Shown here: positions 1-19,883 of the stretch, in pieces | Numbering within the stretch: the stretch's first letter is position 1 | Layout of the letters: every line of letters begins with the position of its first letter | NCBI GenBank assembly: GCA_027596035.1 | Contig: JADGJA010000397.1 | Coordinates: 1-19,883 of the forward strand | Source: Thoreauomyces humboldtii | Taxonomy: Eukaryota > Chytridiomycota > Chytridiomycetes > Spizellomycetales > Powellomycetaceae | Length of the DNA: 19,883 bases | Direction: 5' to 3' | Position numbers and translations under genes: made by a program | The notes under the pieces: generated by a model | Database searches by the model: none | What the model was told of the DNA's origin: nothing | Seen by the model: only the letters and a program-made list of their open reading frames with translations

Positions 1-1231
<1,231 letters not shown>

Positions 1232-1911
1232 ATACCAGCTCCCATCACGCACACACACACACATGCACACACCACCCTGTCTCGCGACGTTCTTGTATCC
1301 GTTGCCTTTCGTATCGTTCCCGCGGTATTCTGGTTCAACGACTTGCCGAACCACCGCTCCAGTTTACATCCTTTTTCTTTTTTCGCTCTAGTTTCCCTCG
1401 TCGCGTCGCTCGCGTCTTTGGCTTCTATGCCCACCGTCCGCGACCGTTTTATCTATCACGTTCGACGTGATCGCCGGTTCCGCAGTCCTCGCGCCAGAAC
1501 CTCAGCCGACGGTCGTTTACAACTCCTTGCCAAGTTCTCGTCAAGGTTGCCAGTCCGCGTTCCACTCGACAACGTCAAGACATGCCAATCCCTTGTCAAC
1601 CGCTTGCCAACGGTCGCCTTGCCACACAAGTCATGCCAACTTCCCAATCATTGCCAATCAAGATCTTGCCAGTCCCGATCTCCCTTTCAAACCTTGCCAA
1701 TCAAGTCCTGCCAGTCTCGTTCATCGGACATGTCAATCAAGTTTGCCTATCCTTGCCAAGCACCAACGCCGCCTGAACCCAGGTCCTGTGTTTCATCCAG
1801 TCAGGTTTAGTTTCAGAGTCCGTCCATCATCGGGAGGGGCAGCTTCTAACCAGTCTTTCAACCACCACGTGTGCTACGACATTCACGAAAACTAAAAGCT
1901 ATCTATCTCTC
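1232..1911. other. Convergent intergenic region with TTGCCA word cluster
   Basis: This stretch lies between the stop codons of the Ran gene and the MYND gene and must hold both 3' UTRs. It starts with a short CA-rich microsatellite near 1247-1270. It then carries a cluster of TTGCCA or TGCCA words at 1527-1758. Open frames here are short, show no recognisable domain and are not supported as genes. Confidence 0.7.
1527..1758 (+). repeat. Interspersed TTGCCA/TGCCA repeat cluster
   Basis: Eleven TGCCA words occur on this strand, eight of them as TTGCCA, starting near 1527, 1547, 1583, 1604, 1619, 1634, 1651, 1666, 1694, 1709 and 1753. Two larger near-identical blocks of about 28 nt begin at 1651 and 1694 with TTGCCAATCAAG, a period of 43. 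Spacing is otherwise irregular, so this is a diverged repeat or a binding-site array rather than a clean satellite. Confidence 0.7.
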
Positions 1912-3260
1912 TTACAGTCTCCCGTACCCACTGAAGGCCATCCACTGCTCCGCGATCATCCCTTTGCCTCCCGCTCCCCCACCCGCGCCGGCGCCTGCGA
2001 GTCCCCCGGTCCCGAGCCCTGTCCCGATCCGTGTTCCACCGCAGACGTCGCTGTGCTGAGACTGATGCTCGTCCCTGCAGTCGTCACCGCAGTACCACAC
2101 GTTGGGACACGCGTTCCGGCAGGTCCTGGGCTCCGAGAGGGACGTCATGCAGCAGTAGGCGCAACGGGTGCGTAGGTTCTGGGTCGACTTCCGGGAGAGG
2201 AGGAGACGGGGTCGAGCACTTTGGGTGGGCTGCGATGGTGATCGTGGCGGGAACGTCTCCATCGTCGTCGTCGATGTCAACGTTGGCGAATCGCTCGGCT
2301 CCGTTCGTCGAGATGGCGGAGATCCTGGAAGAGGCGGAGGTCGAGGATGGGATGGAGATCGAGGTTGCGGTGCCATGAGGAGAAGTCGCGTGAGGACCGA
2401 GGAGGAAGCCACGAGCTTGGAGGCGAAAGTCGGTGGATTGGGTGATATGAGGGAGGCGACGCAGGGACGATCCAGATGGTACGTCACGAGCAAAGATTGG
2501 GACGTCGATTCGTCCCTCAGTTCCAGGTTCAGGATCGCGAGCTAAAAAAAAAAAACAGAAGCGCGAAGGGATGTGTGAGTGAGATCAGGTCGAGAAAGGG
2601 AAAGCATGGGATGGATGGTGGGAATTTGCATCTGTTTACCTGCAACGCGACGGCCCTCCTCCCATCCGCGCCTCCATCTCCATCATCCGCATCCTCCAGC
2701 ATCGAAGCCACGAGACTGGTGGCTTCCTCCAGGAGATCCCTGACGGATCCCTTCTTGTCCATCTCCCCGACCGTGTCCCCGCGTCCGGGCAACGCCACAG
2801 GAGGACTGCTGGCGTCCTCCCGTCCTCCCGCTCGCTCCAACGCCTGCTCGTAGATCAGTCTCCCCACGTCCAGTCGCAGGGCCCAGCAGCAGAGAGGCGG
2901 GTCGGATGATTCGGGACGGAGACGGGAGGCGATCTGGAGCCGGGCGCGCGCGTGGATGAGGATCTCGACGGCCGGTCGTCTGCAGAGTCGGGCGACGGAG
3001 ACGAGGTGGGTCAGTATGACGAGGGTCTGGGGTGGTGGTGGTGTGTTGGTGGGGGCGGTGGTGATGTGGACGGGCCATTCGAAGTTCATGAGTTCGAGGG
3101 TTCGTAGTAGGGCTCTGTATGTCGGTTTGTGTATTGATGGCGATGATGATGGTGATGATGATGAAGCTGCTGCTGCTGCTGCTGCGAGAACGGTGGCTAG
3201 AAGGTGTTGCGCTTTGACGTGAGCTTCGGGATCCACCACCAGTGGGATGGACGATACGAT

Positions 3261-3293
<33 letters not shown>

Positions 3294-4139
3294 CGCCTGA
3301 GCCTGAGCCAAAGCGACGTCATGGACGGCGACGAGTCTCGTCGCGAGATCCACGGCCAGGTCCATCATGTCCTCGTCCTTGTCCCTCAACTCCATGGCGT
3401 GATCCACTCCGATCGCGAAGAGGGACCTGAACTCTTCCTCCTCGATGCCCGCGATCCCCGTCCCCGTCCCCGCCGTCCCCGTCCTCAGGGCGTGGTAGAT
3501 GGCGAGGGCGCACAGATGCATGTGAAGACCGTGTCTCTTGTTTCCAGCCTCGGCTATGGCCTTCCCCAACGCCAAGGCCAGACGAGCCACGCTCGCCATC
3601 CTCGTCCTCCTCCTCCCCGGGTCGGAACTCGAACCCCCGTTTCCATCATCAACCTCAATTCCGTTCCCCTTCTTCCCGACCAGACGATGCAGGATGTCCC
3701 CGTCGTCCTCCCCGCACCGTTCCGGATGGTCCGTGATCCAAGCCGCGAGTCCCATCCCGTCGTCCGCGAACCTCAGCGCCTTGAGGAGCGAGTCCATTCC
3801 GTCGAGCGGGGAGGAGATTGCGCACTTGTAGAGCGTCGCGTTGTAGCATGCCGTTGCGTACGGGAGCAGGAGGGAGGGCGTGACGAGGGTGGCGGTGGAG
3901 TCTAGTGGGATGGAGTATATCCAGTCTGCGGAGACGTCGAGGTCGTGGTTGGGGTCGACGTTGGGTTGAGTGGCGGTGGCGTTTTTGGTCGTGTTGGTGC
4001 TGGTAGTGGTGGTGGTGGTGAATGAGAGGACCAATGACGGGAAGGATGACGAAGGGGAGGAACACGAGCAACAGTACGAGTGAAAGGAGGCCGACTCTCG
4101 GTCCAGACGTTCCACGAAACTCTCCACGGCGCCGTTCAT
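1912..4139 (-). CDS. Helical (TPR-like) protein with C-terminal MYND zinc finger, two exons
   Basis: Exon 1 runs from 4139 down to 2640 and exon 2 from 2541 down to 1912. The intron (2639-2542, 98 nt) has donor CAG|GTAAAC and a polypyrimidine tract before TAG, and joining keeps the frame. The product is about 709 aa. The middle is Ala/Leu-rich and looks like helical repeats, possibly TPR-like, interrupted by a (AQ)n tract, an alanine run and Ser/Asp-rich linkers. Residues about 627-667 carry eight ligands, C-x2-C-x9-C-x3-C-x5-C-x3-C-x7-H-x3-C, the MYND pattern; MYND fingers usually bind short proline-rich peptides. A Gly/Ala-rich tail follows. No SET domain is visible, so it is not a SMYD methyltransferase. 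The frame stays open upstream to 4334 but has no ATG before 4139. Function is unknown; the N-terminus is the least certain part. Confidence 0.75.
3260..3311 (-). repeat. Hexanucleotide repeat coding for (Ala-Gln)n
   Basis: A near-perfect array of CTGAGC-type hexamers (plus strand) lies inside the MYND gene and encodes alternating Ala-Gln on the minus strand, with one CTGCGC variant. A hexamer keeps the frame when it expands, so length variation between strains would be tolerated. A separate CTG run at about 3167-3186 encodes polyalanine. Confidence 0.85.
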
Positions 4140-4201
4140 TACTGTAGATACACGGTAGATACGGTAAGCGAGGCCTGTGCAGTTTGGCGACGGAAGTACC
4201 A

Positions 4202-4264
4202 GGATACCGGGACTTCGGGAAAGAATACCGGTACTTCGGGAAAGGATACCGGTACTTTGGGAAA
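4202..4264 (+). repeat. Three-copy 21-bp tandem repeat upstream of the MYND gene
   Basis: Three 21-bp units at 4202-4222, 4223-4243 and 4244-4264 share the core ATACCGGNACTTYGGGAAA, with single-base differences. They lie 60-125 bp upstream of the likely ATG (4139) of the minus-strand gene, in its promoter or 5' UTR. The same frame would encode a Ser-Thr-Gly-Ile-Leu repeat if translation began further upstream. Confidence 0.85.
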
Positions 4265-4806
4265 CGCCGGTGAAGTATTTTTGAGAGTTGAGGATCTCAT
4301 GTGGATCCTCAAAGAGATCGTCGAAAAGGTTCACTGGGTTCTCCGAACACCAAAGCCTCGTAGATAAAAAGAGTATACGACTTGATGCTTAGTACCCCTT
4401 GGTCAAGGCTTTGTATATTGCATATAGAACTGGACGCAACCGGTGCTGCTAATGGCGATGTACAGTTCATGTTGCTCGATCCGCATTTGGGGACGGCCTT
4501 CGTTTGAGCGGGTTATATTCTCAAAAATGCAGACAGTACTCTGATTCAAGCTGTTTTTCACGCTTATGTCCTGTTTGATGTTCATGTCGCAAAGTTGGCC
4601 AAATAATATGTTTTCGGAGGCCGCACATTCCCGAAGGACATTTCATTCGCAGAACAGCATCCTACAGCGTACATCATCCTAAACTCTTTATCATTCCATT
4701 TTCTGCAGATGGCACGCTCCCTCGAAGCGAACTTTAGTGAAGATTCATCCCGCTAGAAAAGAGCTGTCTAAACTCTTATTGCTGCATTGGTCTCGTCGAC
4801 GAAACA

Positions 4807-4861
4807 ACCTCAATGACCCACTCAGAGGGCGAAATCAGAGCTCGCGTACCGTCATTGAGGT
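4807..4861. repeat. 11-bp perfect inverted repeat
   Basis: ACCTCAATGAC at 4807-4817 is matched by its exact complement GTCATTGAGGT at 4851-4861, with a 33-nt spacer. A 10-bp perfect palindrome, TCGTCGACGA, lies just to the left near 4794-4803. Pairing stops at the outer flanks. Confidence 0.8.
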
Positions 4862-4988
4862 ATGATTAGCGCTTCATGGCTACTCAAGACCGCACGGTCC
4901 AAGAAATGGTGCTTAATTATGAATTTCGATAGCGTGAATCAACACTTTGAAACGATATCGTAACGATTACGGGGGAGCTCACAGGTAA

Positions 4989-5025
4989 AGGACGCCTATA
5001 AGCGTCCTAGAGCAGCAAGCTGCTC
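4989..5025. repeat. Two adjacent perfect stem-loops
   Basis: AGGACGC (4989-4995) pairs with GCGTCCT (5002-5008) around a six-base CTATAA loop. One base later GAGCAGC (5010-5016) pairs with GCTGCTC (5019-5025) around AA. Each stem is 7 bp without mismatch. The pair could be part of a structured RNA or a DNA cruciform site; nothing around it identifies a known RNA family. Confidence 0.7.
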
Positions 5026-5617
5026 GGGTGGTGCGTTCTGTGCCCGGATGCGAGCTCAACGGCACGATAACTACACGTCGGGCGTCCGCTGTGCAAGCGT
5101 CGCTACGGTTTGATATTGCTGTCTCCCACCCACTTGTGGTCTGGACGCTGTATCGCATCAATGGTCGCTATTGTCGGGTTTCAAGCGTTTCGTAGGTGGG
5201 GACAATGTCAAATCTGCGTTGGACGATCTAATACATGGAATGCAACGTAATTCCTTCTTTGTTTTGAGGTAAGTCCTTCAAAGAAAACTTTCGTAGCGCA
5301 GCGGTATGTGCTTCCGGCTTACCCCAGGATATTTCGAGTCTGGGCTGTTGAGTACGAATAACAGATCGTTTCTTTCTGGAGACTCATGCCGTGTCATGAT
5401 ACCAGGAGCTTGGCGACTGGCGAACGGCTTTCTGGCATGGGGAAAAAGGGATTCCCTGCCGAGTGTACTACAGCAGTCACTCGACAGACGGCTTCCCTTC
5501 AGGTTTTCCTGCTTTTTCACCGCCCGCACGACCGCCCGCACCTTGTGGCCGTGTCCCTGCCAGTCTGCTTTGTCCTACGGTCACCTCATGCCGCCCCAGC
5601 CAGGCTGGAGCGTTGTT

Positions 5618-5624
5618 TATAAAA
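5618..5624 (+). promoter_or_regulatory. TATA box of the Myb-like gene
   Basis: TATAAAA lies about 125 bp upstream of the ATG at 5748. It is followed by a pyrimidine-rich, C/T/A leader with no upstream ATG before the coding start, as expected for a strongly expressed or regulated fungal gene. Confidence 0.65.
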
Positions 5625-5747
5625 GACGCCTGCAGGCTCTTTGCTGCCTCCCATTCTTCCATCCTTCTACGACCACGACATTCCTTCACATTCGTTCACT
5701 TTCACAACCAACTTTCCCCACTCAATCCTACGAACTGCACATCGAAC

Positions 5748-6062
5748 ATGACAGCGTGTAACAAGCGTTTCATGCAGTCGCTTCTGGTATGTCAAACTCG
5801 AAGCAGATACTCCATGAGTGAACTTGGGGTTGACAGGTGTGTTTTTTCCTTCAAGAAACATCCGTGGCGCGGGGGCGCTTATTGGACGGAAGCTGAGGAG
5901 AAAGCATTGGGCGCTGCCCGAGCCCGCGGTGCATCCATCAAGGAGATGGCGTACGATCACAGACGCACCACCGCCGCCATTTACCAACGGCTGAAAGTCC
6001 TCGATCTTGCCGAGCTCCCCGCAGTTGGTCTCGACGACACCAAGATCGGCAAGCGCAAGTAG
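5748..6062 (+). CDS. Small Myb/SANT-like DNA-binding protein, two exons
   Basis: Exon 1 is 5748-5786 and exon 2 is 5856-6062. The intron is 69 nt, a multiple of three with no stop, so the retained form is also open (104 aa against 81 aa spliced). Its ends are GTATGT and TTCCTTCAAG. The body reads W-T-E-A-E-E-K-A-L, a helix with Ala/Arg, then RRTTAAIYQRL-x-V-L. This matches the three-helix Myb/SANT or homeodomain-like fold, with a helix-turn-helix at about residues 33-65 of the spliced product. A basic C-terminus (KIGKRK) could serve nuclear entry. A TATA box stands upstream. It is unusually small for a transcription factor and has only one repeat; it could instead be the relic of a larger gene or a co-factor subunit. 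DNA binding is inferred. Confidence 0.6.
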   Translation: MTACNKRFMQSLLVCQTRSRYSMSELGVDRCVFSFKKHPWRGGAYWTEAEEKALGAARARGASIKEMAYDHRRTTAAIYQRLKVLDLAELPAVGLDDTKIGKRK

Positions 6063-6099
6063 CAAGTAGCCGCCGCCGCAAGTAGCAAGTAGCAAGTAG
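6056..6099 (+). repeat. CAAGTAG heptad repeat spanning a stop codon
   Basis: Five exact CAAGTAG copies occur at 6056-6062, 6063-6069, 6079-6085, 6086-6092 and 6093-6099; the second and third are separated by CCGCCGCCG. The TAG stop of the Myb-like gene is part of the first copy. Confidence 0.9.
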
Positions 6100-6447
6100 C
6101 CGTTCACCAGCAAATACAAACTCACCTATAAGGAAAATGAAAGCAAATCTTGAAAGCGTCGGTTGTTTCTTTTCTTTCATTCGTGCCGACGAATATATCC
6201 CATCATTCAACCCCAAGATCCTGTGTCATCGTGGCTCAATGTCTTCGTCTTTGCATGGTATCCTAGGCATTCCTGCTTTTGCATGCGCAGTGTGAGTGAG
6301 GCAAATGTCTGCGTCGTTTGCGCGCGGAGGGGTATTAGCCGGGTGTTTTCCATAGATTCGGCTGGTTTTCCCCTCTGTGTTCTAAGCCCGCAGCTCTCAT
6401 TAACCCCCCCGCACAAACTTCTCCGACGTCCCCGAGCTGCCCTCGGC
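6063..6447 (+). other. Leader/promoter region of the PPP1R37-like gene
   Basis: This is the gap between the Myb-like stop and the chosen ATG at 6448. The downstream frame is open back to 6163, but that extension reads as low-complexity, Cys/Phe-rich sequence with no domain, so I treat it as 5' UTR and promoter. After the CAAGTAG copies I see nothing distinctive. Confidence 0.5.
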
Positions 6448-9400
6448 ATGCTTGAACCCCTGAGCGACGATGGCGGTGACGCCGACTTGGGAGTGGGGAA
6501 CTTCGAGATTCACACTCCTATCTCAACTGGAATCCCTGCTAGCATCAATGTCGACCAGCATCACGAAGAGGACGGCGACGAAGCGAACTTGAGGGAGGAG
6601 GGAGAGGAACTTGATGGGCAGCTCACGCCGGGAACGCCGGACGGACCACTAGTACAACCACCACGACCACCCCCATCTGTAGACCGCAACCGTCCGCCTG
6701 TCTCCGCGGCTCGAGGACAGTCTGAGGAGGACATCAGTGGGGCATCCTTGTCCTTTTCGCGGCCCTCCGGTGCACCAGGCGCCGGCTTCGCATCATCCTC
6801 CTCCTCCTCGGCGTCTCCTGTTCGCCAAAGTCCTCCGCCCATCCATCCGCCACGGCATCACTCTCTAGCGGAAGCGACCATCGACAAGGTTATTCCTTCA
6901 AAACTGAAGATTGTTGAGGACCACCATAGGCTAATGCAGGAGCCTCATCCGGTCATGTCGCCTCGCACCATAACATCTTCTGCCCAAAGTTTTGGCGCTA
7001 CAAAACCAATGAGCCCACAAGCACCTTCATCGTCTTCCTCCTCTTCAACAGTCCCATCTGCTCTTTCTCCGCCCGCTCTCGCTCCCGGCGAAGACCTCGA
7101 CGCGACGTTTGCTCAACTACTCTCCATGGGCTTCGAGGCCGACATGTGTGAATTGGCCATATCGGGATGTCTGGCCACGCGTGCGAGGCTTGGAGAGGGT
7201 GCGCCATCCATCGGTTTGACCGAAGCCGCCGTGGCGTACATCGTGGCACGAATGGGAGAGACCTCGGCTCGGGACATTGCCGGTAAGCAGCTGGAATCTT
7301 CGGGTACGCTCTGTTCCCGGGAGACCCATGGTGGAACTCGGATGGGACGGAAGCTGGGAGTTCAGAAGATGGCTGCTCAAGCAGAAGCCTTGAGGGGTTT
7401 CGAATCTGTTCGAGGATCGGCAGCATAGGTAACTGCTCTGACGGTTTGCATCTCTTACTTTAGTCAAACCAGTTCGCCCAGCCAGTCACCTACCGTCGGG
7501 CGCTAGCCGTCCTCGCGGCATTCTCAAACCCGCTCCTGCGCCTCTCCAACCGCCATCCCTTTTCTCACGCTTTGCGAAACAGATGGATACAGCAGCTGAC
7601 GCGTTTTCGTCGACTCTGGAAAAAATGAAGCCACTCCTTGCGGGTCTATCGAGTGGCGACCTTGATGCTGAGGAAGACAGCAACGGGTATTCAAGTCCCG
7701 TCTCAGCTCCGCAAGGGTCACGGATCTTGGAAAGCAGTCCAAAGAGGACAACGCCAGTCAGCCCATTTCCACCCTTCACGATAAGCCGCACCTCTCGGGA
7801 CTCGCTTCCTCGCCTCAGCACGGGTTCAGCCTCATCGGTCTTTGCATCCCGCGACTCTCTCGGTCCTACGCCGAAACATGTTCGCTTTTCATTTCCGGAT
7901 ATCAACGGAATGGAGCCAGGGCCTGCATCACCTGCGCTTACAGATGACAGCGCCAGCTTCTTTTCAGCGTGGGATGCATGGGACTCACCAATAGACCAAC
8001 CACCAAGCGTGACCGAAGCGCCAATTGCACCGCCCGTTGATCACGGCCCCCCGGCTAGGACGCGAATCGAGACGGCCGAGGCACTGATCACCTATTATCA
8101 GACCCGATGCGCTTTACGAAATCAGAAGATCGTGGAGAGCATCGCTGTGCAGATCAGAAAGGCGGTCGTGAGTGGACTGCCCCTCTCCGAGCTGGACCTT
8201 TTCGGTATGGGATCGTTTGGGCGCTTTCCCTTGGACATAGCAGCTTACGCCTTCAATTACGTTACCAATAAGAGATCGTGATCAGTTCAAAGAATGTGGC
8301 TTCCATTTCGGACCTTTTGGCTACTAGTTACCCTATCGGCAGAATTTCATTTGAAGGGGCTACACTTGAAGATGAGGTCAGTACGGAAAGGTCGGATGTG
8401 AGCAACGCAAGTGATGTTTCTGATCCGAGAAGATGTACAGAGTCTGAAGCCAGTGCTGTCCGCGATTTTACTTCATGACCACGTCAGAGAGTTGTCGCTG
8501 CGTGGTGCCAAAAAAATCGGGACCGCAACGCTTAAGTATCTATCTGTCTTCGTTAAAAAGGTATCGGTGGAAGTGAGGCCGTACTTTGTGCGCTGGCAGA
8601 CTAAACTAAAACTCGCGCAATGGCACGTTCTCAGAGCAAGGCTCTTCGCTCCCTTGACGTTTCGCGGATCTCCTTTGATCATCGGGCGATGTCTTACCTT
8701 GCTCACGCTCTCCGTGAGGGCACGGGTATTTTATCGACTCTTCGCATGGATGGTTGCGATGTGTCTCCTGCGTTGCTTCGCGTACTCAGCACCGGTGTCA
8801 TCGAATCGGGCCTCACAACTCTTACACTGCGGGACAACAGACTTACGCGAGAGAGTGGCGCAGCGTTTACGGACATACTACATGGCGGTTCCAGCCTTTC
8901 CTCATACATTATTAGGGGAATCAAGGTACTAGACTTGTCAGGAAACAGCCTTGGGGTAAGAAATATCGCACAAGACTTGGCGATCGCCACGAGATAGCTA
9001 ACTCGGGGTTGGACAGCGAGGAATAACGACCATCGCCGCTGGCCTAGCTAAAAATACCCGGCTCGAGGAGCTATATCTACGCAACAACCAAGCTCTGGAT
9101 GCACGTGACCTGAACGCTTTGGCGGAAGCGTTGGTAAGCTGATGCGAGGAGAGACAGATCGCTCGAGCGGCCGAATTGAAGTTTTGGTGAACAGAAGGCG
9201 AATACGCGTTTGCGAATACTCGATCTTAGCGGGACTGTTTTAGATGGGGAGAAAAAGGTTGATGCGGTAAGACACGAAAATTGAGGAAAGCGGTAATTTG
9301 CACGGTTAAGTCTCATTGTCGCCTTGCAAAGATATCAGCGCTGAAGGACGCACTCAATCACAACAAGACACTTCGTACGCTTTCCCTCTCCCGGACACAC

Positions 9401-10614
9401 CTAACTACTGAAGGTGAGCGCTTTCAAATGCAAGCATCACATCTCAGCCTCTCTGACTTCAAGGCATCCTGCAGGGGCCATCGCACTCGCGGAGTCACTT
9501 CCGCTCACTGATACTCTCCGTCAGCTGGAGCTCTCGCATAATCCACTGGATGTGGCCGGCACCATGGCCCTCGCCGTTTCGATGAAGATGAACCACAGCA
9601 TTGTCACTCTCGATATTGCTCCTGTTCTCAAGAAAGGGCTGCAACAGGGTATCGACGTATGTTTTCCGCTTTGCTTGTTAATCACGGCATCAAGGCAACT
9701 AAGCTGTTTTGCTGTTAAAGGACAACCCAGATCTAGCTTCTTTTCTTAACGACATCGCTATGTATACACAGCGAAACTCTGAAATTGCGTACTCAAGTCC
9801 AACCAAGGGGCGAGAGGAACAGTCGCTCGAGAGTTTGGGTGACGACACTGCAACGCGAATCGACGCTAGGAAATTAAGCAAGGACATCGAGACTGCCGTC
9901 GAAACTGCCAGAGTTCTAGAAGAAATCCTGGGAGCTGGCGGAAGCGCCGAGGAGGTCATACAGGTAAGTCTAGCAGTCTATCTCGACTAGCGAGCCGGAA
10001 CGCTGATGCGCGCTTGATCCGGTAGCAACTGCATGATCAGACTAGAAGTTTTCAAGGCACTCTCCAACAACTTGTCAGCGAAACGCCGGGGCTGTCAGAA
10101 GACCTTCTTGGTAGAGCGTAGTACTTCTCAAAAACTTTCTGCGTAGTGTGTTCTTACTTGCTATTCCTTCTTCAGTGACAGTCCTTTCAGCAAACGACGT
10201 TCTCGGCGGAGCGCTGGCAGCCTGGGCGCGTCGAAATGCTCAACCGGTAGTGCGACAAAGACTGAAAGATCCAGACAATCCCTTCGGTCTTGATGTGCCG
10301 CTTGTTGCTCGACCATCTTTCTCGCGTATGGGGTCGTCCGGGTCGACACCTGGAATGCTGGCACGGCACGGAGGTGGGGGGAGCTTTGGGAGCCTATCGT
10401 CGGATTTGGATCTCACAGGGATGGAGGAGGATGGCCCGCTGGGAATGGGATCGAGCGACACGAGCGGGAGGGTTGGTCATGGGAGACTGAATTCTGAGCT
10501 GGATGATCAGGTACGGAGCATCCGGAACGATTGGGCATAATTATTTTCTTGAAATAATGCTTTCCACAGATGAAAGAAATCGATGCCTTCCTGGACGATG
10601 AGGCGGACAAATGA
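6448..10614 (+). CDS. PPP1R37-like leucine-rich-repeat PP1 regulator with N-terminal UBA-like segment, 13 exons
   Basis: Proposed exons are 6448-7282, 7464-8204, 8273-8380, 8433-8560, 8635-8955, 9017-9133, 9195-9266, 9332-9413, 9475-9656, 9721-9963, 10026-10110, 10176-10510 and 10570-10614, giving about 1097 aa. Phases match at every junction. The exon 3/4 junction (weak donor near 8381; acceptor 8429 or 8432) is least certain. Residues 1-210 are disordered and Ser/Pro-rich; about 217-268 resemble a UBA fold (LLSMGF start). GILKP is followed by KHVRF at about 416-420, a classic RVxF docking motif for protein phosphatase 1. About 520-862 are ribonuclease-inhibitor-like leucine-rich repeats (LRSLDVS, LTTLTLRDNRL, LEELYLRNN, LRILDLSG, LRQLELSHNPL). 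The order RVxF, helix, then LRRs ending in MALAVSMKMNHS closely follows animal PPP1R37. It probably recruits and restrains PP1. The UBA part may belong to another transcript. Confidence 0.8.
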
Positions 10615-11411
10615 AATCCCTTCCTAGTCCATATTTCAATGGTTCGATGGGCGTTTGAAGTTGCGACCAATCATCCGGACAATTGCTATGCAGAACCAGA
10701 GAGAACACTCGTGAAGAAGAAGATACCGAGCAGAGTATGGAAAGCTTAGGGAGCCGGGGCCACGCCGAGGGGCTCTGCCACTCCCAACGCGACCACTCCG
10801 TACACAAGTCCGTATCGACATCTGTACCCGCCAAGTGATCCCTTCGACCTAAGGTCTCCCTTTACCCGGGGGTGGCTTGACCGTCCGTTTGAGGATCCAG
10901 CCTCTCGGCTCCGACGCGAGAGGCTACAAGGGCTTGAACCAGGTACCTCTACGTCCTGTCCAGCGAGGCACCCTGAAAGTGACTACGAATGTGGACAATC
11001 ATGGGGTGGCATTGATAACACATCTCACATGATGTGACTGTTACGCCGGTTCAGTATTTGTAAGTCCCCTCTCCCGGAAGAGCCATCGGCGACGAAGTCT
11101 CCAGTACCTGCGCATCTTTGGATGGGTGAAGAAACATATACAGTACAGTACATTATAAAGTCAACAGCTCTTCAAGTTGCCGCTAGCGCCTTTCAGGACC
11201 TTTGAGTTGATCCCTGCTATGGTCGGAAAGGAGTTACTCGCAACTACTCATATCGCTCAAGTTCCTGATTGCTTAAGGTGGAAGTGGCGAAAAGGCAGGA
11301 CGCCGAGTCTGCTTTAACGAGCACGCGAGAAACGTAATCCCAAAGATGGTGAAAGGCTATAGCTTGATCTCAGTCTTGGGTAGCAATTTCCAATCTATTC
11401 GAAGAGCGCTT
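10615..11411. other. Gene-poor gap left of the HMG/methyltransferase/homeodomain island
   Basis: No supported gene lies here. The left part is 3' UTR of the PPP1R37-like gene. I see a 9-bp GC-rich stem-loop at 10899-10925, a 13-bp palindrome TCACATGATGTGA at 11025-11037, and an AT-rich TTATAAAG near 11153. No transposase, terminal repeats or target-site duplication could be recognised. Confidence 0.5.
10899..10925. repeat. GC-rich perfect stem-loop
   Basis: AGCCTCTCG at 10899-10907 pairs exactly with CGAGAGGCT at 10917-10925 around a nine-base loop. It lies about 285 bp past the stop codon of the PPP1R37-like gene, so a role in its 3' end is possible but unproven. Confidence 0.7.
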
Positions 11412-11856
11412 TCAAGACATGTTTGTTCTCTTGGTGCGTCTTGGCTTATGCTTTCGAGGCGCAAAGCGGTAGTTAGGGTGCGCGATCAGATGTAGAGCTT
11501 TCAGCTCTTGACTTCGCGCCTGGTAAACAGCTTTCACTGATGTTGATTCCGCGGCCCACATCCTGCCTATAATCTTCGAGACATCGTTGTTCACGATGTT
11601 TTTGAATCTTGCGAGGACCCGACGGTGCTGTTGTTGTCGGTAGATGATAAAGGCGTTCAAAGGCCTTGGGGTGCGCCATCGTTTATTTAGCGCTTCCGGT
11701 CGAAGAGATGGCTTCGTTCTCTGTTCCAACGATGTAAGTATTCTGAGCCTCGAAACGTGTTGAAGCCCTCATTACCTCCTGCATCTTGCCCGTAGAAAGA
11801 TGTGTGTGGGATTGGGCAGTAAGTTTCAACGGCGCGCTGAGTCCGCTGACGTACAT
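11412..11856 (-). CDS. MATA-type HMG-box transcription factor, probably two exons
   Basis: The long exon (11720 down to 11412) encodes PRPLNAFIIYRQQQHRRVLA followed by NNDVSKIIGRMWAAES, V-Y-Q-A-R-S-Q-E and HPNYRFAPRKHKPRR. This is a complete MATA_HMG-type box: the RPLNAF opening, Tyr-Arg of helix 1, the I-x-R-M-W of helix 2 and the HPNYR..PR end. Basic residues after the box could serve as a nuclear signal. The frame has no ATG inside this exon before the box. A 55-nt intron (11775-11721, donor GAG|GTAATG, acceptor ACAG) joins it in phase to an upstream exon whose ATGs lie at 11856 (129 aa product) and 11784 (105 aa). HMG boxes of this class act in fungal mating-type and pheromone-response control. 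The gene diverges from the methyltransferase gene. The box is secure; start and intron are inferred. Confidence 0.72.
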
Positions 11857-11957
11857 GTGCTGACGCCTCGCGCCGGGCCGAAGGTTCCGCACGCGTTTCC
11901 TGGGGGAGGGACGGGGGGTGCTCCCCCTTTTGCCTTGAAGTTCTTCTATCCGATGCA

Positions 11958-13822
11958 ATGCTGCCGCAGGCAGGGTCAGGGACCTCAGTCGGATCCTTAT
12001 TTACCGGGGTACTGTACAGATCCCGCTCAACGATGCTTGTGCGCTCCCAGGCGACTATGTCTCGCCTCATGAACCGCACTGGCCTCGGAGAGACTCGCTT
12101 AGCCGCCGTCCTTCCTTCAATGTTCGACCCCACCTGTCGCGAAACCAGTATTCATGACCATAACAGGTCCTGGATTATTGCCGACCCCAAAAGAACCCTC
12201 CTTACCCAAATAGAACGCATTCGTCTCGACGGTGTCTTTCGAGCGGCTGGCCAGCGTCTTGTGCGAGCTGGAATTGCACGTAACGCCAACATGAAATATT
12301 GGCCAATCTACAATGGAAAGGTGGTAAAACCAGCTCTTTACGATTGGCCACTACCAAATCTAACTATCTGCGTTACAGATGACACCATATGTAGACATTG
12401 CGTTCATCAAGGATCGCACCTTGCACCTTTTGAAGTTCAGAACCGAAATTCAGATTGACAACCAGAGAACCGCCCTGATTGCAGAGTTCTGCGCGAGCAA
12501 GCAGGTTGACGGCGGACTTACGACGAGCTATGACACCGTAAGGGTCCTTATGGTATCGTGCGGAGTCATGCAAGCGAACAAAGAAGATCCGCGCTTCCGG
12601 GCTCTTCCTCCTCATTTGCGAACGCATGTCATCGGACTTGACGATTTGACAAATCTGCTCGAAAATAGTGAATCGAAGGAGACGCCTCAGTGTACGCGAC
12701 TGGTTTCGCACGTGGACACCATTTTGGTCGACGCTGTCCAGCAGGCTCTGAGAACTACGCCTACACCGGCCACCACAGGCTGCCTTAATTCTCGCACACC
12801 GGAAGATGCTCCGACTTGTTCAAGTTCGGCCGCAGCATCGCCCACTACATTGCATCAGGTATATATATTTCGCGAGTTCGCTGTCTTTTCCTATTTAACG
12901 TTAGTATCAGATACCCACAGCACAAGCCTCGCGCACACACAAGAAACCACGCCTGTCACCGTTGATATCGTGGCTGGGTGGAAAGTCGGAGGAGATTCGC
13001 CACTTTCAAGAATACATTCCAAGCCTGCGAAAACACGAAAACTACGTGGAGCCTTTTGCCGGCGGGCTTGCAGTCATGAATCATGTTGGCCACACGAGAA
13101 ATGCTATTTCCGATACACATCTCGACCTCCTGAACTTTTATTCGGAAATCAAGCATGGTCACGGTGAAAGCATTTACACGAGGATGAGCGCATGCAAGTT
13201 CGATGAGGCGGAGTTCAAGAACATTCGTGACGAGCGGTACGACCAGCCAGAGCACCCCACGAACCGCGCTTTCAGGTTTTATTATCTGCGCGCTACGTCC
13301 TTCCGAGGCATGGTTCGCTACAAGACGGACAAAGCTGGCGGCATTACATCTGGCGGAGGGTTCGGAAATCGGAGGGTAAGTCCTTTGCTGATATCAAGCT
13401 CAGCGTACTTCGGCGTTAACTCTACAGTTTGGTAGCTTGGCGAACGACGCTTGCACTCTTTGCAGGACGTGCGTTATAAGGAGCTTCTCGAGCGGACTGA
13501 GATCATAGCCTCATCGTACGAAGCTGTACTAGCTAGGCACGATACCCCGCGGAGTTTCGTATTCTTAGACCCGCCATACGACTGCACATTCACCAACTAC
13601 GGATTCTCTACATTCGGTCGCGAAGATCACATGCGACTTGCTCATAGGTTCAAGACCACCAAGGCGCGTTGCCTCTTGATCCTCGGCAAAACAAGCTTCG
13701 TTAGCCAGCTTTACAAAGGCTACATAAGGAAAGAGTTTTCCAAGAACTACCGCTTCAACATCGCCGGTACACCAACAGCTCCAGAATTTGTCAATACCCA
13801 TCTTGTTATCACAAATTACTGA
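11958..13822 (+). CDS. D12/Dam-class adenine-N6 DNA methyltransferase with unrecognised N-terminal region, four exons
   Basis: Proposed exons are 11958-12320, 12379-12858, 12905-13375 and 13436-13822, all phase 0, giving about 566 aa (541 if ATG 12033 is used; an acceptor at 12910 or 13465 is also possible). From about residue 300 every hallmark of the D12 class is present in order: ISWLGGK (302-308), the SAM-binding NYVEPFAGG (327-335), D-x-H-x-D-L-L-N-F-Y, FYYLRATSFRGMVRY, then the catalytic FLDPPY (483-486 for DPPY) with TNYGF and ending HLVITNY. Enzymes of this class transfer a methyl group from SAM to N6 of adenine in DNA and are typical of bacteria, phages and some large DNA viruses. 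Residues 1-280 match no family I know; the first 40 are Arg/Ser-rich and almost free of acidic residues, so organelle import is possible. The active site looks intact. Confidence 0.8.
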
Positions 13823-13873
13823 GCGGAAATTATATGTGGGAATCACAAGAAAACATGAATTTGTGGAGCAAAT

Positions 13874-14674
13874 TCATATTAATCTTTGGCATATGTCGAC
13901 GGGAAGCGCAGGTCCGACTTCCGATGATGATGAAATCCGAACTTCTAGTATCGTCGACGAGCTACTTCCAAAAGTTAATGCTGAGCGCGAAATAGAGCAG
14001 AAATAGGGCGCACCATTGATAAACCAGTCATTGAGTTGCTTCATATTAAGGCCCGAATCGTTGCAAAGAGTTGCCTTCTGTGATTCGCTTGGAAATGGAT
14101 GCGACCGATTCTCGTAGAACCAAGTGTACAGAACCGCAAGCTGCTCCGTTTTGAAGTTTGGCCGCTTTGTCTTGACAGGGTCACGGGCGGAGCCTTGGGA
14201 AGTTTTACGGCCGCGTTTGACCTGCTCCGCAAATTCGGCCACGGAATCATCCAATATATTCCGATCGTCTCGCGATAGAGAGCCAGGGCTTGGCAGTGCA
14301 AGGGTTTCTGTCGCTTTTCGCTTGCGCGGGGAAAGGAGAGGAAGCAGGGCGTCAAGCTCTCTCTGGAACCCTTGCAAGTGGGCAGCAGTAGAAGCCTCGC
14401 TAGAAGCCGCCGTTCGAAATGCCCCCAGTAACTGACTGATCGAGAGTTTCGCTAAGGCCGCCAGAAAGGTGTCTTGAGGTTTCTCAGAGCGGCTCATTTT
14501 CAATAACTCGTCAGAGCGGCTGTGAACGAGCTCTGCTGCGCGGGAAAGTGCCTTCCCGCTTTCCGTTCTGTCCCCAGTTTTGAAGGTAGCGATGCGAATG
14601 TCCATTAGCTCATGAACGACCGAGTACATCTGATGTTCTCGGAGTTGAGCCATTTCACAAAAGTCGTCGGACAT
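13874..14674 (-). CDS. TALE-class (HD1-like) homeodomain protein
   Basis: ATG at 14674 is the first in frame; the 266-aa frame ends at 13874. Residues about 167-222 form a TALE homeodomain: TKRPNF arm, LYTWFYENRSHPFPSESQK with the three-residue loop extension (HPFP equals the family PYP), then LNMKQLNDWFIN with the invariant W, F and DNA-contacting N (220). Basic SPRKRK and KRGRK stretches upstream could be nuclear signals, and the N-terminal 120 aa are helical, as in fungal HD1 mating proteins where this part dimerises. Directly after WFIN the usual Arg-rich end of helix 3 is missing. A stop-free 69- or 72-nt intron from 14013 would change this to WFIN followed by EVR or VR. The gene converges on the methyltransferase gene, only 51 bp apart. 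No HD2 partner is visible. Confidence 0.75.
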   Translation of the reverse strand: MSDDFCEMAQLREHQMYSVVHELMDIRIATFKTGDRTESGKALSRAAELVHSRSDELLKMSRSEKPQDTFLAALAKLSISQLLGAFRTAASSEASTAAHLQGFQRELDALLPLLSPRKRKATETLALPSPGSLSRDDRNILDDSVAEFAEQVKRGRKTSQGSARDPVKTKRPNFKTEQLAVLYTWFYENRSHPFPSESQKATLCNDSGLNMKQLNDWFINGAPYFCSISRSALTFGSSSSTILEVRISSSSEVGPALPVDICQRLI

Positions 14675-14702
14675 CTGGATGCCGGCTTGTAGGCAAATTT
14701 CG

Positions 14703-14749
14703 AAGTGGGATTTTTGCGAAAATGGCCCCAAAGTGATTTTTGCGAAAAT
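14703..14749. repeat. Direct repeat in the homeodomain gene promoter
   Basis: GATTTTTGCGAAAAT occurs exactly at 14709-14723 and 14735-14749, each preceded by AAGTG with a short difference. The two copies are 26 nt apart and lie about 35-75 bp upstream of the homeodomain ATG. Each core is nearly palindromic, as expected for a transcription-factor site; the factor is unknown. Confidence 0.7.
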
Positions 14750-14852
14750 AGTTCGTCATATATATCACGAATGGTCAAGCACTTCCCAAATTACGACAAA
14801 CGGCCGCAACTTATCCATCTCCGCCTTAACCGTCCCCGCTTATCCCTTCCAA

Positions 14853-16728
14853 TCAAGGCCCAGTCCAATCCACCAAAGCGGTCGGGAGGACATCCGGGAC
14901 CTCCGTCCCGCGTAACCTCTCATCGATCAGGTACATACCTACCGGGAAAAAGTCACCAGTGGAAAGCCAAGGTCAGTCGAATGCCCATATCAGAAACGAT
15001 CAACGACCAACAACATCAGCAGCATTACCGATACAGAACTCTGCGCGATCCAGCATCCCGTCCTCATCGCGATCCGCCAGGTTCCTGCCACCGCCATAGA
15101 ATGCGAGCCCGTCAGCACAAGGTTGTCACGAAAAAGTCCTGTTCCCCGTGCTCACCATATAAGCCCAAGGGTCCGGTTGTCCAATCCACTCTTGACCCAC
15201 AGTTTCCTCGCATCCTCGCCCCCGACCAGACCCGAGTCCCCTCGCTCCACGAACAGGTCCATGTATCGGGACTGCGCGTCCTTCGGGATGAGGGACTGCC
15301 GTCGCTCTTGCGGTTGCCGCTGCGGTGGCGGTGGCGCCTGAGCCGGTCGTCTGGAGGGGGGAGGCGGGGGAGCTGCCGGTCTCGGTCGCGAGGGGACGGG
15401 AGGTGCCGGTAGGGACGATGCGGGGTTCGGGTTGACGACCGTGCGGGTGAGGTCCGCAGCGATGGGGAGACCGAGGGCTGCTCCTGCTCCTGCTCCAGGG
15501 GGGTTTGTGGGACGTGGTGGTGCTGGTCTCCGAGCGGGGAGGGAGGGTCCGCCCGATGCGGGCGTCTGAAGTGGTTGGGATTGAGATGGTGGTTGGTCGA
15601 TGGGTTTCGGGGTCGGAATGGATGGTACGGCTGTGAGGATCGGGGTCGAGTTGACGGGTGTCGTGTTTCGTGACCGCACCGCTGGGGGTGCTCCGGATGC
15701 GGGTTGATCGGGCGCGGTCGCGCGCGAAGGCAGCTTGGGAGGTGCGTAAGATTGGTTCGATACCAACAGGCCGGGTCGATTTGGGAGGGCAGGATTGGAT
15801 CCTCCGAGCTGTTGTTGCGGAAGGACGGGTGGCGCGTCATCCAGGGAGACGCTGTTGAAGCGGTTCCGAAGGGCGGCCACGGTCGATGCGTGGTCGGACG
15901 CGACGGAGGAACCCGAAGCAGAACGCGTCATGCCTTTGATCTGCTGCGCTTGCGGTTGTACGGGAGGAGTGCGTCTGGCCCAAGGTGGAGTAGTGCTTTC
16001 AGCCCTTCCAGCGTCCGATGTGGTGACACTGGAGTTGCTGGCGGTGCTGTTGCGAGCAGCCATCAAGCTCTCTCTCCCGGCCTTTGCGAGGGCGTTGCTC
16101 TTGTCCTGTATGGCCATGCGAGTCGCGTGGGCGTTCAGCTTCTTCTTTGCCCTGGCGATCGCATCGCTGGTCGTGACCGACTGGCCAGAATCCTCCTGAT
16201 CCGCTGCGCCGTCTGCGCCGTCTTCTTCGGGAGGTGGAGTGTTGAAGTCTGCGGGCTTCGGCGCGGGACGCAGTGCGGCTCGAAATCCCGCGTCCGAGCC
16301 GGACTCGGAATGAAGGGACCCTGCGGACAAGTCGCGTCGCATACCCGACGAAGGCTGAGTGGTCGCAGCACGGTGAGCGAGGGAGGAGATGGAACTGGCC
16401 GAGGTGGACGCGGATATGGTGTTCCGTGACTGCATTGGCGGCGGTCGACTCGGCGGCTGTGAGGTCGTTGGCAGGGCGTGAGCGTGAGGATCGAGCCCGA
16501 CCAAGAGAGAACGCAAGAATCAAGCGCTACCTTTGGCTTTTCTGCCTCTGCTGCGTCGACGAGCATGACATAGTTTCCGGGAAACAGACCTGTCTTCGAG
16601 CCGAGGGTTCCCACCAGCCATCCGGCGTCTGGAGCGGGACGCACGTCGGTGATGGAGTCTCCTGCCTTGAAGGAGAGTTCCTGAGGCGTGTCCCCGTCGC
16701 AGTCGAACAAGGCTCTCGCATGCGTCAT
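14853..16728 (-). CDS. SH3- and EH-domain endocytic adaptor, four exons
   Basis: Exons on the minus strand are 16728-16531, 16456-15156, 15084-15029 and 14938-14853, with phases matching throughout and about 546 aa. Residues 3-58 are an SH3 domain (ALFDCDGDTPQELSF, GWLVG, GLFPGNYV). A long Ser/Pro-rich disordered linker with many proline-rich stretches follows. Residues about 455-540 are an EH domain: SRYMDLF, GLVGGEDARKLWVKSGL, LGLIW, then the EF-hand loop DRDEDGMLDRAEF and CIGMYLIDERLRGTEVPDVLP. EH domains bind NPF motifs in endocytic accessory proteins and SH3 domains bind proline-rich partners, so this is probably a scaffold at cortical actin or clathrin sites. The SH3 is N-terminal and the EH C-terminal, an order I cannot match to a named yeast protein. 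It shares a short promoter with the GGA gene. Confidence 0.85.
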
Positions 16729-16973
16729 GATGTCTCCTCAAGATGGTTGGCTGAGCTGTGCCGAGAGACTCTGGACGGTGATGGAGCCTCCTCTGGATCA
16801 ACTTCCGTCGTCGTCGTCGTCGTCGGTGTGTGTCACCTCTTTGCTACGCCACACGGGGGAACACCTCTGCGGAATCGGCCGCACCCACAACTCTTGCTCA
16901 CGTCCTCCCATCCCCATCTTCCCACCCATTATCAGTCGCTCGCTCGACGAAACGAAGAGGCACAGCGGGCAAC
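16729..16973. promoter_or_regulatory. Divergent promoter between SH3-EH and GGA genes
   Basis: Only 245 bp separate the two start codons, so both promoters and both leaders must fit here. The region holds a short GTC/GAC trinucleotide run near 16807-16825 but no obvious TATA box. The pairing of two vesicle-traffic genes makes shared regulation plausible; that is inference from position only. Confidence 0.5.
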
Positions 16974-19653
16974 ATGACATCCTTCATATCGATGGGTTCC
17001 CTTGTGGGTGAGTTGTACCGCGTCTGCTCCTTCCCATCTTGTCATTGTCCCTCATGTCCCTCATGCCAACTACCTGCCCGCCCGCCCCAGACTCTGCCTG
17101 CGACCCAGACTACTCGGAACCTAACGTAGCCCTCATGCTGGAGATCTGCGACCTCATCGTCTCGACCGGAAAGAACCTGTGAGAAGCGAAGCATCCCCTT
17201 GCCTTTGCCCGTCGGAAACATATGCTCATGCCTGTCTCTCCCCCAGGCCGAGAGAGGCCGCATTTGCCATCACGCGAAACATCAACTCCCGCACCTCCAC
17301 CGGCGCTATGCACGCACTTCTGGTACTCTACGCTGAGGCTTCATGCAGAGCGTCATCGGACGGCAGGATTGCTCAACTCGCGCACTCCTTCTCTGTCATA
17401 GCTGCTCGACTACTGCGTCAAGAATTGCGGCTATCCGTTCCATCTCATCATCTCCACGAAAGAGTTCCTCAACGAGCTCGTACGGCGATTTCCGGAGAAG
17501 CCAACGGTGAGTGTGGGAAAGTAGGGTATGGAGGACACGTCAAGCGTCCCGCATGTCTGACGATCGGGAATTCTGTTCGCACTACAGAACATTTCGATGG
17601 TCCACCATCGTATCCTGGAACTCATCCAACAATGGAATGCAACCTTATGCGCTACGTCCCGGTACAAAGAAGACTTCAAGCACATCAATGACATGTTCCG
17701 GCTACTCTCTTACAAAGGTCGCTTTGCTGACCTTGTCCTTCACCGTTCGCTGTGCATCCTCGATCTCTGACTCGGCTATGTTCCTGTGCCGCAGGTTACC
17801 GGCTTCCACCACTATCCAAAGAAGCGATAGCACAACTTAATCCGGAACCCGCGTTCCAGACAGCCGAGGAGCTCGAGGAAGAGGACAAGGTTGCTCACGG
17901 TGCAAAACTGACGGAACTCCTCCGCATCGGAACTCCCGCCGCGCTCGAACGTGCCAACGACTTGATGAAGATCATGAGTGGTTACGACACGGACCGGATA
18001 CCAGATTACACCAAACATGTCCAGGTCGAACTCGATCGGATCGAACAGAGGGCCATCGCCCTCAACGATCTGCTCATCAGCAAGCGGGAAGGGGACCGCT
18101 TTACAGTGGATGAGCGGATGGAAGAACTTGTTGGCAGCACGAAGAGCGCTCAAACGCGGATTCGGAAGCTCGTCGAAGATGGTGACGAGGACGAGCGGAT
18201 GGGTGAGTTCTCACTTAGTCTCTTTGCGTCGTCAACCCGTACGTCTACTGACACGTCTGCCTTGAACAGAACGCCTGTTGGAGCTCAACGATCTGATCAA
18301 TACCGTGCTTATCAAGCACGATGACTACAAAGCGGGCAAACCAATAACCGGCGCGCTTGCGAAAGCATCTCCAGCCCCAACTTCCGCTACCTCTTCGCAT
18401 ACCACATCCCCAACCGCTTCATCAGTGCAACCCGTTGCAAGTCTTATCGATCTGGACGACTGGGGAGCACCCGGCCCGACCGGCCTCGCGCCACCCGGTA
18501 CATCGGGTACCTGGACCCCGACCGCTGTGACGCCATCAACCGGCGGTCCGGGGATGAGAAGCCTGATGGATGACCTCGGCGACCTGAACTTTGGGACGGC
18601 GGCGCCTACATCCTCGGGTGCCAACGGAGCGGCTTCACGACCACCACCACCACCACCCGCTTACTCGGATTTCGCAAACTTCGCGGGTGGCGATAACGCA
18701 CAGCCGGCTTCTGGAACGAATACACCTGGCTCTGGCCCTCGAATCGCACTTCATAGCACTGGCGGAAGTAACGCTGGGTTCGGAAGCATGCAGAGCGCTG
18801 GCGCTAATCTCGGAGGACTCCGTCCACAGCAGCAGGTTCAGGGAGGTGGGAATGTTTGGGGAGCACCTTCCATGGCGGGCGGCATATCGCCCGTCCAGGA
18901 ACAGTTCCCACAAAAACCCGCGGATCCTTTCGGTGGCATCGATCTCTTTGGTAAGCTTGCTGGGATACAAGGTATGGACGACAGTGATCTTCTTTTTCCT
19001 GGGGAGTCTTGGACACTTACTCCTTCGTTCAACTGCAGCTGCATCTTCCAATACGGCTACTCCTTTCCAGTCCCTACCCGGCACCCCACCCGCTACCCCC
19101 GCACAGCAGCCGCAGCAGCCATCCATTCAATCATCACCAAGGGAGCTCATGCTTTTCGACAAGAATGGTCTGCAGATAAAACTGCGAATAGCCTTCAACC
19201 CCGAGACGAAAGAGTTGATCGGCAAGGTTTCGTTCGTCAACGTTACGACCGTCAAGTTCGACGAGCTGAACTTTATGCTCGCCGTTACAAAGGTGAGAGC
19301 GGGGAGAGGCTAAAGAAAGAAAATACAAGAGGCAGTAAAAAGCATGAATCGGCACCCGCTCGGTTTTTCTAACCTCGGCGTCTGGCTTTTGAGTAGAACA
19401 TGAAACTGGCCATGGAGCCGGCGAGTGGAACGGTGTTGGAACCGCTCAACCAAGGAGGCGTCACACAGGGGTTACGCATCTCGAATCCGCTAGAGGTGAG
19501 TCATCCAAGGTCTATCGATGCATACTTTCGCCTGATTGTTGCATTGACATGGCTGGCATCCTTATCAAGGAGCCATTGCGATTGAAATTCAAGGTCAGAT
19601 ATTCCATCAACGGCGCTACCGTCAACGAAATGGGAGAGTATAATGAGGCGTAG
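16974..19653 (+). CDS. GGA-type Arf-binding clathrin adaptor, ten exons
   Basis: Exons are 16974-17007, 17091-17178, 17247-17322, 17402-17506, 17588-17717, 17795-18202, 18270-18950, 19039-19292, 19397-19495 and 19570-19653; phases match and the product is about 652 aa, close to other fungal GGA proteins. Residues about 10-146 are the VHS domain (VALMLEICDLIVST, LLDYCVKNCG, RYKEDF). Residues about 160-300 form the GAT domain, which binds Arf-GTP and ubiquitin (LTELLRIGTPAALERANDLMK, ERLLELNDLINTVL). A disordered hinge carries the clathrin box LIDLD (339-343). The end (543-652) is the gamma-adaptin ear with the GLRISNPLE and VRYSING strands. GGA proteins sort cargo at the trans-Golgi network into clathrin vesicles bound for endosomes. 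The gene is complete. Which of the yeast GGA1/GGA2 paralogues it matches cannot be decided, so no symbol is given. Confidence 0.93.
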
Positions 19654-19883
19654 CGCAGTTCCACACACTCCGAAGATTCTCAATGGAGAAGCTCCACCAG
19701 CAAGGGAAGAGCTAGGCTGATACCCCCCATCGAAGAACTCTTATCACCCTCCCTTTTTACTTAGCTCTTACATAAAGTTCAAGGGTGATAAGACACACGG
19801 AACGGGGTCCTCGTGGGTCAACAGCCTGAGGCGGATTCGGGAACGTAGTCCTTTTTTTCTTTTTGGTTCCCGTCTATTACAAA
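19654..19883 (+). other. 3' flank of the GGA gene
   Basis: This is the presumed 3' UTR and terminator region, ending in a T-rich stretch (19852-19865). It contains the 12-bp inverted repeat listed separately. No gene starts here within the window. Confidence 0.5.
19739..19793. repeat. 12-bp perfect inverted repeat after the GGA gene
   Basis: TCTTATCACCCT at 19739-19750 is the exact complement of AGGGTGATAAGA at 19782-19793, with a 31-nt spacer. It starts 85 bp after the GGA stop codon. Confidence 0.85.

Follow-up and report, generated by a model that had tools for sequence, protein, structure and literature searches.

A D12-class adenine methyltransferase gene of a chytrid, possibly a captured and fused restriction-modification pair, between HMG-box and TALE homeodomain genes

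In the genome of the chytrid Thoreauomyces humboldtii we found a gene for a D12-class N6-adenine methyltransferase, and the reading of it that we somewhat favor is that a type II restriction-modification pair was captured and fused, that its cutting half is probably dead, and that the protein has been kept as a solitary writer of N6-methyladenine (6mA). The gene lies in a stretch of 19,883 nucleotides (“the window”: contig JADGJA010000397.1, positions 1 to 19,883 of the forward strand, or C331 among the 823 contigs of the 20.67-Mb assembly). A first-pass annotation of the window had reported an HMG box (minus strand), a D12 methyltransferase (plus strand) and a TALE homeodomain (minus strand) within 3.3 kb, and this trio is indeed present: all three domains score above their Pfam cut-offs (PF00505 HMG box, 66.5 bits vs. 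25.4; PF02086 D12, 58.3 and 41.0 bits on two exons vs. 22; PF05920 Homeobox_KN, 53.1 bits vs. 24).

The methyltransferase gene (12033..13822, plus strand) has exons at 12033-12323, 12379-12858, 12905-13375 and 13466-13822 and encodes 532 amino acids. The public protein (P0001; HKX48_005530 of T. humboldtii, 444 aa) has the same introns save for one acceptor placed 6 bases later, its third exon beginning at 12911, and it is without the first 86 residues of the present model (window 12033-12290). Homology to P0002, the homologue in Fimicolochytrium jonesii of the same family (Powellomycetaceae), begins at residue 57 (160 of 497 residues identical), and part of the stretch upstream of the public start is therefore coding. 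P0002 has the same domain layout; the presence of such a homologue in another genus of Powellomycetaceae, together with the introns, argues against contamination.

The D12 domain (12950..13822, plus strand) carries the GGK, EPFAGG and DPPY motifs (DPPY at 13568-13579) in invariant columns, so that, as judged from sequence, its catalytic motifs are intact; the PF02086 score above the gathering threshold, combined with the S-adenosylmethionine-binding and DPPY motifs, places the enzyme in the D12 class. The solved structures closest by sequence are 2dpm (DpnII methylase 1, E 3e-15) and Dam enzymes. The best PADLOC model for both chytrid proteins is MTase_II (1.9e-46 for P0001 and 9.9e-54 for P0002), which relates them to the methyltransferases of restriction-modification systems. 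In a six-frame search of the assembly, from which intron-split domains can escape, PF02086 was matched at this locus only (two rows). No D12 enzyme in fungi was found in the literature searched (subscription papers and preprints lay outside its scope), and “D12” did not occur in the available passages of PMC13297926.

Of the 8000 best candidates in a protein search, 45 were matches, and the only species-named fungal proteins among these were those of T. humboldtii and F. jonesii. In a tree of 45 rows the two chytrid enzymes join with support of 100/99 and group with the viral contigs L046-L050 and protein P0003 (support 99/97), separate from all 16 bacterial-genome rows sampled. Viral scans with single protein queries gave no match; an alignment-based scan did find viral loci, of which the best 80 were kept, as were the best 80 loci of a like scan of genomes. 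The genes around D12 in L046-L050 look phage-like by eye, and a giant-virus origin is unsupported.

Further, in nine viral loci of two clades (L046-L050, L053, L054, L064 and L066) an upstream open reading frame (ORF) with a D-x(n)-[ED]-x-K motif adjoins the D12 gene, the D and K of the motif being invariant in the alignment of the nine ORFs. An ORF matching a profile of these nuclease-like genes adjoins D12 in 9 of the 80 best viral loci vs. 0 of the 80 best genome loci; seven of those nine are members of the profile, L065 scores the same as L064, and L066 is new. A PADLOC scan covering three of the nine upstream ORFs matched L053 to type II restriction enzymes (5.7e-9), L048 to a PD-(D/E)XK model (8e-4) and L046 weakly to a type II restriction model (0.0044), behind a DRT model at 0.0026. 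The motif was rejected as sole evidence, since about half of the control loci have it, and the nuclease profile gave nothing significant by sequence against solved structures. Six of the nine ORFs (L046, L047, L049, L053, L054 and L064) match PHROG 26553, which is listed as of unknown function and seems to comprise the restriction nucleases that accompany D12 methyltransferases in phages. At L050:4359-4970 a different ORF, with D-x(n)-D-x-K, lies upstream of D12 and is missed by the nuclease profile, which suggests partner exchange in these pairs. As a separate observation, four bacterial loci (L126:3876-5555, L134:4016-5632, L161:3860-5554 and L165 from 3661) have, by eye, a distinct conserved ORF directly downstream of D12, carrying TLFFTTSPRTP.KM.PEI... 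in three of the four; this ORF is probably another restriction partner.

The N-terminal domain of the chytrid enzyme (residues about 57-221; 12201..12750, plus strand, split by the first intron) is the proposed vestige of a PD-(D/E)XK nuclease. Comparison of the chytrid N-termini with the nuclease alignments by hhalign gave E-values of 7.7e-4 (7 rows), 0.0019 (9 rows) and 0.023 (4 rows), and for each of the three alignments 0 of 200 column shuffles matched the observed score; the alignment is colinear over 145 columns. In single-sequence comparisons the nuclease ORFs mostly ranked high, without a clean separation, at 1, 2, 10, 13, 17, 18, 24, 37 and 88 among 99 real ORFs (p=0.0018). Homology of the N-terminus to the phage upstream nuclease is thus supported by sequence comparison, but weakly. 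In the aligned active site T. humboldtii retains the metal-binding aspartate, as D103, and has K116 and R118 in place of E and K in E-x-K (K-x-R); F. jonesii has R-x-Q in the ungapped and Q-x-K in the gapped alignment. The acidic residue of E-x-K is lost in either alignment, and therefore, if the weak alignment is right, cutting activity is probably gone.

It seems plausible, then, that a chytrid lineage acquired a type II restriction-modification pair of the kind that some large phages carry, with the nuclease gene immediately upstream of the D12 adenine methyltransferase, no later than the common ancestor of Thoreauomyces and Fimicolochytrium. The captured pair would have gained introns and become one protein; its nuclease half would have lost the acidic residue of E-x-K and would now be either a folded remnant or a DNA-binding or target-recognition module, and its methyltransferase half, intact, would work alone in writing 6mA on DNA, in addition to the customary MT-A70 enzymes. 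On this view the neighbors, an HMG-box and a TALE gene, would simply be ordinary chytrid regulators.

Several observations weigh against this capture of a whole pair. The hhalign probability is only 2-25% in local and 8-40% in global mode; the plain hidden Markov model (HMM) of the nuclease places the T. humboldtii domain below 4 of 1000 shuffles (E=5), and F. jonesii is absent among the 22 matches listed; the T. humboldtii N-terminus has no match in PHROGs; and the AlphaFold model of the F. jonesii protein is mostly below 50 in predicted local distance difference test (pLDDT) in the N-terminal region. The active-site loss in F. jonesii depends on the alignment, the gapped version of which would keep the lysine. 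On the phage side, among loci that have an upstream ORF the motif is shared by 17 of the 40 other viral ones and 22 of the 44 from genomes, and none of the nine phage upstream ORFs has a Pfam match over cut-off. The methyltransferase also evolves fast (branch of 1.35 in the tree). The weak absolute scores and the failed plain-HMM and PHROG searches favor the alternative that the methyltransferase alone was captured and that its N-terminal domain is unrelated to the nuclease, serving instead in target recognition, in targeting or as a chromatin domain; we regard this as a serious possibility, if a rather doubtful one, because it must contend with the colinear 145-column alignment, with shuffles that never reached the observed score in any of the three alignments, and with the nuclease-D12 gene order in the nearest phage-like clade. 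As for targeting, the signs of a mitochondrial presequence on the methyltransferase are weak at best, since its charge and moment are reached by 110 of 2000 shuffles in T. humboldtii and by 190 of 2000 in F. jonesii.

F. jonesii, which carries the homologous D12 gene, is one of three chytrids named in passages of Lax (2024; PMC11258239) as having exceptionally high 6mA, over 1%, and P. hirtus, another of the three, belongs to the same family. A further point against the proposed writer role is that neither P. hirtus nor T. arcticum, the other high-6mA chytrids, was among the protein matches from the 8000 best candidates; therefore MT-A70 alone may explain the 6mA, and the link between D12 and 6mA rests on one species. 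The T. humboldtii assembly contains three MT-A70 loci, one with in-frame stops, and C5-methylase matches on six contigs; the MetB-type family PF02384 was not found in this genome, in a search whose control was positive in 13 of 14 genomes.

The two neighboring genes are both on the minus strand. The HMG-box gene (11412..11856) is modeled with two exons (11856-11776 and 11720-11412) encoding 129 amino acids, with the box towards the C-terminus. No ATG precedes the box in the frame of exon 2, and an upstream exon is therefore needed; exon 1 (11776-11856, joined via a 55-bp intron) is a prediction. The closest solved structures of the box are SRY/SOX boxes, and it may belong to the MATA_HMG class. 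Nine HMG_box rows were found in the assembly, three of them SOX/MATA-type by eye (C331, C526 and C788); a protein search of the assembly returned the same three contigs and a weak row on C444 (E=0.96). The two other genes of this type, at C526:7479-7703 (on a contig with an alcohol dehydrogenase) and C788:99-437 (on a contig with NMD3 and an Ada2-like gene), are also candidate sex-related regulators; no recognizable sex genes were seen near them in 10 ORFs of either contig.

The TALE homeodomain gene (13945..14674; exons 14674-14014 and 13961-13945, 225 aa) has its homeodomain at the extreme C-terminus. The main frame is without the last homeodomain residues, and a 52-bp intron followed by a 17-bp exon (13945-13961) restores WFINARRRY and the stop. 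The three-residue loop extension (HPFPSE loop), the WFIN of helix 3, the PF05920 score and the structural matches (Meis/TGIF/PBX, with Meis the best) identify it as TALE. Eleven homeodomain rows at 10 loci were found in the assembly, one of which (C216) stops short of the diagnostic helix; only the one in the window is TALE by eye. Neither the HMG nor the TALE model had relatives at E<=0.001 in the protein collection, their own entries included, in a word- and length-limited search; since the models did not find even themselves, both genes seem to have been missed in the annotation of the public proteome. Two exact 15-nt direct repeats, GATTTTTGCGAAAAT, lie a short way upstream of the TALE start codon, at 14709-14723 and 14735-14749 (26 nt start to start), and are possible regulatory sites.

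The three genes are tightly spaced, with 176 bp between the modeled start codons of the divergent HMG and methyltransferase genes (11857..12032) and 122 bp between the stop codons of the convergent methyltransferase and homeodomain genes (13823..13944). That two unrelated regulator genes simply came to flank a captured methyltransferase, and that the three do not act together, is to us the probable explanation, and it is compatible with the capture proposed above. Under uniform placement, and calculated post hoc, the chance of any HMG/homeodomain pair within 3.3 kb is p=0.028, from six-frame counts that may miss domains split by introns, and this window may be one of many that were scanned; phage or bacterial relatives were seen for the methyltransferase only, the HMG and TALE proteins matching eukaryotic domains; and the G+C content at third codon positions of all three genes (0.55-0.57) is within the range of the flanking exons (0.54-0.83). 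The tight spacing and the much smaller chance of a MATA-type and a TALE gene lying this close (p=0.001 under the same assumptions) speak against mere accident. The distribution of relatives also makes a single transferred three-gene cassette, as the annotation had suggested, unlikely.

A mobile element or multi-copy cassette was rejected as well. A genome-wide DNA search with window positions 7400-19800 matched only C164 and C12: a stretch of C12 is 68% identical to window 17245-17719, and C164:15865-16687 is 93% identical to window 15876-16705, a truncated 0.8-kb duplicate of part of the SH3-domain gene. The remainder of the 27.9-kb contig C164 is without a match to the window beyond short chance pieces; the C164 copy is therefore a duplicated fragment, and it was rejected as an allelic second copy. 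The repeats seen between window positions 10500 and 15500 were two short direct families and two inverted pairs, both short and imperfect; one inverted pair (19 nt, 79% complementary, 11847-11865 and 15110-15128) spans the island, probably by chance.

In Saccharomycotina the MATa locus combines the HMG protein a2 with the homeodomain protein a1, and basidiomycetes have HD1/HD2 loci. As in those systems, both classes of regulator occur here in or near one locus; unlike them, the chytrid trio includes a methyltransferase, and allelic forms have been demonstrated for those loci and not for the trio. The annotation had read the island as a possible mating-type or sexual-development locus. Its central observation, a captured methyltransferase between both transcription-factor classes of sex loci, stands; alleles or idiomorphs, which the reading would lead one to expect, are not evident in the assembly. 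We consider it unlikely that the three genes work as a locus for mating type or sexual identity, with the HMG and TALE proteins determining sex and the methyltransferase marking one parental genome or that of an organelle. HMG and homeodomain regulators, which define fungal sex loci (passages of PMC2866331), are present, and a stretch of 3.3 kb holds both the only TALE gene recognized and one of the three HMG genes of SOX/MATA type (the post hoc p of about 0.001); that neither protein had relatives in the word-limited search is what fast-evolving MAT genes might show, and no MAT gene was recognized in the chytrids of one comparative paper (passages of PMC6572847). Set against this are the missing second allele, the two other SOX/MATA-type HMG genes, the weak presequence and the flanks: the 10 flanking ORFs have Ras, LRR, SH3 and below-cut-off GAT matches, the other six being without any family match, and no MAT-type neighbor (SLA2 or APN2, or the TptA and RnhA of Mucoromycota) was recognized among them. 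This is a weak test for chytrids, because, in the passages available, chytrid SLA2/APN2 scaffolds carried no HMG or alpha-box gene and MAT genes were not found by BLAST (PMC6572847), and TptA/RnhA synteny is reported absent in chytrids (PMC2866331). A search for the pheromone receptor STE3, made without a positive control, gave no match. Nor did the literature searched describe an HMG/TALE/methyltransferase locus or a chytrid mating locus; the annotation, too, knew of no described fungal locus with this trio. The boldest form, in which HMG and TALE determinants flank a domesticated restriction-modification methyltransferase and this enzyme labels the nuclear or mitochondrial DNA of one parent, is very improbable; if true, it would recast a restriction system as a parental-identity mark. 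The interval does offer a specific site for the chytrid mating-type hypothesis.

Returning to the fused restriction-modification pair, the chytrid enzyme shares with phage and bacterial type II pairs its D12 (DpnII/Dam-like) domain and motifs. It differs in that the nuclease-like gene of the nearest phage-like relatives is separate and immediately upstream, whereas the chytrids have one intron-bearing protein, and, if the weak alignment is right, in the lost acidic residue of E-x-K. For prokaryotic methyltransferases that were captured by eukaryotes and now write marks on their DNA there are two published precedents, according to passages of the papers concerned. N4CMT of bdelloid rotifers (PMC8885841) is likewise an amino-methyltransferase that a eukaryote took over from bacteria, and it too has conserved introns and an additional domain fused to it, but it is an N4-cytosine enzyme (PF01555) fused to a chromodomain, and its activity as a DNA writer was shown by experiment; for the D12 enzyme, activity on DNA is what we infer from its motifs. 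MetB of Mucoromycota (PMC11258239) is likewise a restriction-type adenine methyltransferase captured by early-diverging fungi, and it writes asymmetric 6mA; it belongs to another methyltransferase family (PF02384) and has its own target-recognition domain. Beside these two, the D12 enzyme provides a tangible candidate for a writer in a chytrid family of which one member has unusually high 6mA. Should its N-terminus indeed be what is left of the restriction partner, the fusion would record how such a capture was made safe.

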